Shown: piece after piece, positions 30,737 to 31,007 of the stretch
How the letters are laid out: each line of letters starts with the position of its first letter
Position numbering within the stretch: the stretch's first letter is position 1
Assembly: GCA_028821605.1 (NCBI GenBank)
Contig: JAPPFM010000002.1
Span: 62,001-126,000 of the forward strand
DNA length: 64,000 bases
DNA from: Candidatus Poribacteria bacterium
Lineage (GTDB): Bacteria > Poribacteria > WGA-4E > WGA-3G
Direction: 5' to 3'
Position numbers and translations under genes: made by a program
Notes under the pieces: generated by a model
What the model was told of the DNA's origin: nothing
Database searches by the model: none
What the model saw: the letters and a program-made list of their open reading frames with translations, nothing else

Positions 30737-31007
30737 TTATCCACACCCCTAATATTTGTACTAATTTCTATATATATATTATAGTATTAAATTTAGTAAT
30801 AGTAGTAGGGGCTGTGGATAAGTGGATAACTCGCTTAAACCCTTATCACCATTGACAAGTACCCTGTGGATAACCTGTGGATAACTTTTTGACTTATCCA
30901 CAGGTTATCCACAAACGCAGAAACTCTGTGATCTATCCACAAGTTATCCACAATCTATCCACAAGCAATAATAAAGTTATCCACAGGTTATCCACAGGTT
31001 ATCCACA
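30737..31007. other. chromosomal replication origin (oriC)
   Basis: Between dnaA and recF there are ten perfect DnaA boxes (TTATCCACA or its complement) at 30737, 30813, 30865, 30876, 30894, 30905, 30944, 30977, 30988 and 30999, and three one-mismatch boxes at 30821, 30933 and 30955. Several lie 11 bp apart, one helical turn. An AT-rich stretch (30752-30800) precedes TAG-TAA-TAG-TAG-TAG (30794-30808), then a GGGGC run and the box at 30813. This is the DnaA-trio, GC-rich, box order described for the bacterial basal unwinding system. Confidence 0.93.

Follow-up and report, generated by a model that had tools for sequence, protein, structure and literature searches.

Introduction

A close described relative of the origin reported here is the basal unwinding system (BUS) of Bacillus subtilis (incC, DnaA-box 6/7 and the DnaA-trios), which is presented as having the same order of elements and as lying next to dnaA (PMC6669920, PMC8287927). 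Under the rule given for a BUS, a DnaA box is accompanied by three or more NAN trios no farther than 16 bp away, and the boxes usually stand in tandem; tandem boxes and a GC-rich spacer are described as frequent, non-obligatory features (PMC8287927). How dual helicase loading is arranged at bacterial origins has been named an unsolved problem (PMC10721633, PMC10201434), above all for bacteria that lack DnaD. For B. subtilis, DnaD acting with the element DRE has been proposed, and the question is raised for bacteria that have no DnaD (PMC10201434). As to recognition of the box itself, residue D433 of DnaA is tied to box position 7 and called highly conserved in all classes (PMC8235120). Further related papers are PMC4285127 and PMC13220808.

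Here, we analysed a 64 kb stretch of DNA (hereafter the window) from Candidatus Poribacteria, a sponge-associated bacterium, in which the origin, at positions 30737–31007, has dnaA on one side and recF on the other. By its anatomy it is almost certainly an oriC with a BUS, of a known kind. The arrangement of its motifs further suggests that the chromosomal origin of this Poribacteria species probably consists of two unwinding modules that face each other across one AT-rich stretch.

Results

Gene neighbourhood and DnaA-box array

The dnaA gene (31071–32468, minus strand, 465 aa; Pfam Bac_DnaA 2.7e-67, Bac_DnaA_C 7.5e-29) has as its closest named relatives those of Candidatus Poribacteria MAGs, at 93% identity or less. 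It is separated from recF (29295–30665, minus strand; Pfam SMC_N 6.2e-21, RecF being assigned from position and relatives) by an intergenic region, 30666–31070, that contains the entire origin. The box region faces the 3′ end of dnaA, and past the origin, on the same strand, come the start of recF and then dciA, gyrB and gyrA. The product of dciA (28765–29256, minus strand; Pfam DciA 4.4e-13) is a putative helicase operator encoded near the origin. In nearly all relatives of the window's family dnaA and recF flank the origin, the length of the intergenic region varying widely. No second box cluster was present upstream of dnaA in the window, and a box-bearing region at that place was found in one relative (L033) among those with at least 60% dnaA identity. 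As for dnaN, seven genomes of the window's family (G004, G009, G017, G021, G028, G063 and G081) had 3 to 6 beta-clamp profile matches each, none beside dnaA, and a genome of another family (G044) had one, directly after dnaA. A glycine-rich protein of 2,245 aa, weakly matching SprA_N (9.2e-08), is encoded elsewhere in the window (40399–47136, minus strand).

The ten exact TTATCCACA boxes counted in the first-pass annotation were all found, starting at 30737, 30813, 30865, 30876, 30894, 30905, 30944, 30977, 30988 and 30999, and the exact word did not occur outside the origin in the rest of the window. This is far above chance: in 100 shuffles the word came up 0.43 times on average and at most 4 times. 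The three near boxes of that annotation proved to be one-mismatch boxes inside the cluster, at 30821, 30933 and 30955, so that 10 exact and 3 one-mismatch boxes are packed into 271 bp. Its remark on 11-bp spacing held for four groups, measured start to start: 30865-30876, 30894-30905, 30933-30944-30955 and 30977-30988-30999. Most of these boxes form an array at 30865–31007, with two boxes on the minus strand (30865, 30876), two on the plus strand (30894, 30905) and then six on the plus strand (of which 30933 and 30955 have one mismatch), the 11-bp spacing being kept within groups. The tandem word TTATCCACAGGTTATCCACA, searched with up to 2 mismatches, gave 5 matches in the whole of the bacterium's own genome, all at the origin locus.

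The main unwinding module

The run of trios that had been noted to lead through a G-rich stretch into the box at 30813 is present as described. It consists of five trios on the plus strand (30794–30808, 5′-TAG TAA TAG TAG TAG-3′), followed on that strand by the GC-rich spacer GGGC (30809–30812) and by TGTGGATAA at 30813–30821. The spacer was 4 nt long in all 27 relatives in which it was measured. Beside it stand tandem boxes on the minus strand (30813–30829), the exact box at 30813–30821 and a one-mismatch box at 30821–30829. The module thus agrees with the BUS rule, with five trios at 4 nt from a box, and carries both of the frequent additional features, the tandem boxes 30813/30821 and the GC-rich GGGC. 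On the other side of the trios lies the presumed unwinding stretch (30764–30793), 30 bp with 93% A+T.

Trios resembling CTACTAnTACTA were found among members of the family, the order and the class, and the run was recognisable in 61 of the 69 unique dnaA-flank regions of relatives. Contig ends and distant members of the class are among the remaining 8, of which at least two (L028, L157) carry the run in a form that the search expression missed. One relative (L016) lacks the box next to the trios, and the box that it retains is farther from them than in relatives. The assignment as an oriC with DnaA-trios is well supported, because the neighbouring dnaA, a box cluster unique in the genome, the GC-rich spacer, the five trios and the AT-rich stretch match the published BUS rule. 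With the main module alone, the origin is an ordinary new member of the BUS class.

GC skew and rRNA genes

The first-pass annotation had proposed that a minimum of cumulative GC skew should mark the origin. In this lineage the check was uninformative. Within the window the minimum falls near 50 kb and follows gene direction, and third-codon-position skew corrected for gene strand told nothing about the origin. An IS605 OrfB/TnpB-like gene (47355–48674, plus strand; Pfam OrfB_IS605 1e-18) lies beside this flip of gene direction and skew. Two closed relatives (G009, G021), cut into 40 stretches of 20 kb each, had no significant skew and no minimum at dnaA; their cumulative minima were far from it (permutation p 0.18–0.67). 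Gene direction was likewise unbiased, the fraction on the plus strand left and right being 0.46/0.48 in G009 and 0.55/0.44 in G021. The lack of both significant skew and gene-strand bias chromosome-wide in these two genomes is unusual for a bacterium of such size.

In 6 of 8 closed genomes the 16S rRNA gene is 0.15–0.52 Mb away from dnaA, and such nearness is a weak sign of a nearby origin. The direction of rRNA genes was also considered and rejected as a support: where 16S lies near dnaA (6 closed genomes), just 2 have it oriented away from dnaA, which adds nothing beyond nearness.

A mirrored module faces the main trios

The origin had so far been read as one-sided, and the exact box at 30737 had been counted with the others. 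This box is no stray: on the other strand and across the 30-bp AT-rich stretch, it starts a second, inward-facing module (30737–30763), conserved in relatives, which the first reading had overlooked. In the reading direction of dnaA, the sequence beyond the AT-rich stretch is TAG TAC AAA TAT TAG, GGG and TGTGGATAA. The module is made of the distal box (30737–30745, plus strand), a 3-nt spacer (30746–30748; 3 or 4 nt in relatives) and a mirrored trio array (30749–30763, minus strand, 5′-TAG TAC AAA TAT TAG-3′). With five middle-A triplets, a 3-nt spacer and an exact box, it too fits the box/trio rule of the BUS, namely at least three NAN trios within 16 bp.

Conservation was followed in the 34 unique origins on the tree with at least 60% dnaA identity, of which L018 was left out as a contig end. 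All five mirrored triplets were found in each of the 33 readable origins, which belong to the genus and its sister genus. The middle base of triplets 1 to 5 was A in 33, 32, 31, 32 and 33 of these, respectively; the outer TAG of the array was fixed or nearly so, and the third bases of triplets 2 to 4 were free. Parsimony on the DnaA tree counted 12 changes in first bases, 4 in middle bases and 24 in third bases (middle versus third, binomial p 1.8e-4). A box was kept 3–4 nt past the last mirrored TAG in 28 of the 33 origins, like the 4 nt of the main module, and the other 5 kept the triplets without the distal box. The gap from box to box between modules was 60–68 bp in the 27 origins where both modules could be measured. 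The spacer of the mirrored module differs, being GGG in the window versus AAT or AAA in some relatives. Taken together, it seems somewhat likely that DnaA binds the mirrored element as trios. That the element serves a second helicase, by capture of the opposite strand, may be proposed tentatively.

Reach of the opposed arrangement

A strict opposed-trio pattern, CTACTACTA-N10-40-TAGTANNANNANTAG, matched in 25 of 84 genomes of the phylum, and its reversed control in 1 of 84. The match sits at the dnaA 3′ flank in 24 of the 25 genomes, among them two of other families of the class (G052, G058). The 25th (G046:C223:123-179, L198) is on a short contig whose origin and recF are of the type of the window's family, in a genome assigned to a different one; this contig is probably a contamination. 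Scored with a matrix trained on the genus and sister genus, and so independent only outside both, the mirrored array reached p≤0.05 in 4 of 15 origins from the next genus, 2 of 8 from the order and 2 of 5 from the class, a weak signal.

In other lineages the strict pattern was absent from all 17 genomes searched (L063 was outside this set), and a looser scan by eye of L063–L115 gave no clear opposed array. A pattern of opposed boxes was found in 3 of 398 genomes of the phylum of G085 (Enterococcus), of which only G228 has it adjoining a dnaA-like gene, and in 1 of 145 of the phylum of G092 (Omnitrophota). These cross-lineage patterns require TCCACA boxes and miss other box words, and the opposed-box pattern finds just 13 of 84 genomes in the window's own phylum. 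In G228 (L263, around 1500), the order box-GGCC-CTA ... TAG-GGGCC-box lies beside the dnaA-like gene, and is perhaps an independent opposed layout.

Box words change with the DnaA recognition helix

Conservation in related genomes had also been proposed as a check of the origin. The layout and the trios were kept; the letters of the boxes were not, many relatives having 0–4 exact TTATCCACA and another word throughout. Arrays of the same genus largely agree in box number, direction and 11-bp spacing, yet the word differs across the whole array, and the base changes fall at box positions 5–7.

The recognition helix of the window's DnaA is NREDHTT, in which D432 corresponds to E. coli D433; numbering was set by alignment with RDHTT of B. 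subtilis in 8btg and with the residue list given in PMC7561715. The box word changed together with this helix: Asp at D433 always went with TTATCCACA, Asn mostly with TTATCAACA, and Asn together with Arg at T435 with TTATTATCA/TTATTAACA. Counts were made on 59 origins with at least 3 countable words. The 18 DHTT species all had mainly TTATCCACA, CCA making up 162 of their 174 TTATnnnCA words, and the single DHST species had CCA. For the 29 NHTT species the main word was CAA in 23, CCA in 4, GCA in 1 and CGA in 1; for the 10 NHRT species it was TAT in 9 and TAA in 1; the one VHTT species had ACA. Thus, 19 of 19 D species had mainly TTATCCACA and 36 of 40 non-D species mainly another word, and a T5 word was found in 10 of 10 species with Arg at T435 and in 0 of 49 species lacking that Arg.

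A change of word is not obligatory with Asn at D433, since TTATCCACA is kept by 4 of the 29 Asn-Thr species. One species (L053) has N with CCA kept, and another (L009) has N, stands among D species on the tree and uses CAA in 8 of 11 counted words. Mixed arrays also occur (5 CAA and 4 CCA in L023). A Fisher test gives p 6e-12, a value that treats species as independent and is not reliable. Counted as independent pairs on the tree, D433 gave 4 pairs, 3–4 of them concordant and none opposed, and T435 gave 3, all concordant; pooled, 6–7 pairs were concordant and none opposed, neither test alone reaching 0.05. The DnaA tree is a quick one with long outgroup branches, built on about the first 360 residues, which excludes the tested helix; L158, L194, L195, L193, L188, L190, L191 and L056 were left out of the tree count. 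For comparison, among 53 other loci (L063–L115) Asp occupies the D433 position in 44 of the 46 with a recognised motif.

We conclude that box words and the recognition helix of DnaA very probably co-evolve. The double-stranded half of the system (DnaA domain IV and the box word) appears to have been rewritten several times in this lineage, and the single-stranded half (the trios) to have stayed fixed.

Families f2 and f4 have in addition another DnaA-like protein, which is shorter (about 395 aa) and has a changed recognition helix, in L194 (G044), L195 (G043) and nine more genomes of the order. The helix is SRTTV in the two second-DnaA loci that were read (L194, L195).

Discussion

A mechanism can be proposed from the motif layout. 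DnaA would load on the box array, run from the tandem box onto the plus-strand trios and, in the manner of Bacillus subtilis, melt the AT-rich stretch. From the distal box a second filament of DnaA would take the minus-strand triplets from the opposite side. Each filament would then open one strand to a single helicase, DciA perhaps taking part, and two forks would result. The DciA route for helicase loading is plausible here because dciA lies two genes from the origin. The complete proposal is of a mirror-symmetric origin in a DciA lineage, whose opposed modules capture opposite strands and where DnaA marks both for two helicases, together with a DnaA-box code repeatedly rewritten through the equivalents of D433 and T435. 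Taken as a whole it is possible, and we offer it with reserve.

The opposed module could be explained otherwise. The origin may have a one-sided BUS only, the distal triplets being a part of the melting region or a site for a protein of the HU/IHF type and the distal box an ordinary one. NAN triplets arise easily in AT-rich DNA, triplets stand without a box in 5 of 33 relatives, and the next genus shows the element weakly (4 of 15 at p≤0.05). However, the 3-base periodicity, fixed middle A, free third base, five-triplet length and constant 3–4 nt to the box are predicted by trios and hard to obtain from melting alone, and opposed TAG runs occur at the same place in two distant families; we therefore consider this explanation rather unlikely. 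DnaA acts as a transcription factor elsewhere, and the distal box and triplets lie some 70–100 bp from the recF start, so they might control transcription of recF-dciA-gyrB-gyrA instead of initiation. This appears improbable, as the position of the element is tied to the AT-rich stretch and the main box (60–68 bp, 27 origins) while the dnaA-recF intergenic length varies widely.

It might also be that the cluster is a DnaA-titrating or regulatory locus and that the true origin is elsewhere, for example near 50 kb, where cumulative skew in the window is lowest. That local flip coincides with the change in gene direction, closed relatives have no genome-wide skew able to place an origin, and the trios, AT-rich stretch and dnaA neighbourhood fit an oriC, as does the nearness of 16S rRNA in 6 of 8 closed genomes; we regard this possibility as extremely small. 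Finally, recombination or gene conversion within an array could make the box words drift together, DnaA following or being unrelated. Mixed arrays such as that of L023, and the several words tolerated by Asn, speak for this, but boxes on both strands and isolated boxes change too, and in separate branches particular recognition-helix residues are matched by particular words, which makes concerted drift an unlikely account. We retain two facing modules, with co-variation of DnaA and its boxes, as the most probable reading.

If correct, the conserved opposed trio array is a concrete, assayable cis signal for helicase loading in the opposite direction. The matched changes in residue and box bear on how an essential initiator switches its site when about a dozen sites must change too, and the lineage would offer a natural series for reading the DnaA-to-box code. 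A literature search, with most subscription papers and all bioRxiv preprints outside its range, found no description of an opposed trio array or of co-change between DnaA residues and box words.

Like the B. subtilis BUS, the Poribacteria origin occupies the gap that separates the 3′ end of dnaA from the gene after it, with tandem boxes, a short GC-rich spacer and trios. Unlike it, this origin has a second, opposed module of box and trios, recF and not dnaN comes next, and there is no second box cluster upstream of dnaA. The mirrored array resembles the DRE of B. subtilis in being a proposed cis signal for the second helicase on the strand opposite the main trios; in the account given there, however, DRE is the sequence complementary to the main trios, and DnaD recognises it (PMC10201434), whereas in Poribacteria the proposed signal is a distinct trio-like array on the far side of the AT-rich stretch that has a DnaA box to itself. 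Trios beside a box, downstream of dnaA, are also described for oriC2 of Clostridioides difficile (PMC7561715) and of Helicobacter pylori (PMC8235120), but these origins are bipartite, and the available portions of the two papers mention no opposed array. The Thermotoga maritima oriC with its eTrio shares TAG repeats, reported as needed for unwinding in that species, and a non-E. coli box; in the description available, all its trio elements are on one strand and the box is a 12-mer (PMC10316083). In Epsilonproteobacteria, as here, the box core differs from that of E. coli and changes in domain IV of DnaA are suspected; that core is presented as fixed across the species studied (PMC5043019), whereas the Poribacteria word changes several times within one order, following D433/T435. 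The opposed module and the co-variation of DnaA with its boxes are what goes beyond the known BUS, and they are worth bench work.
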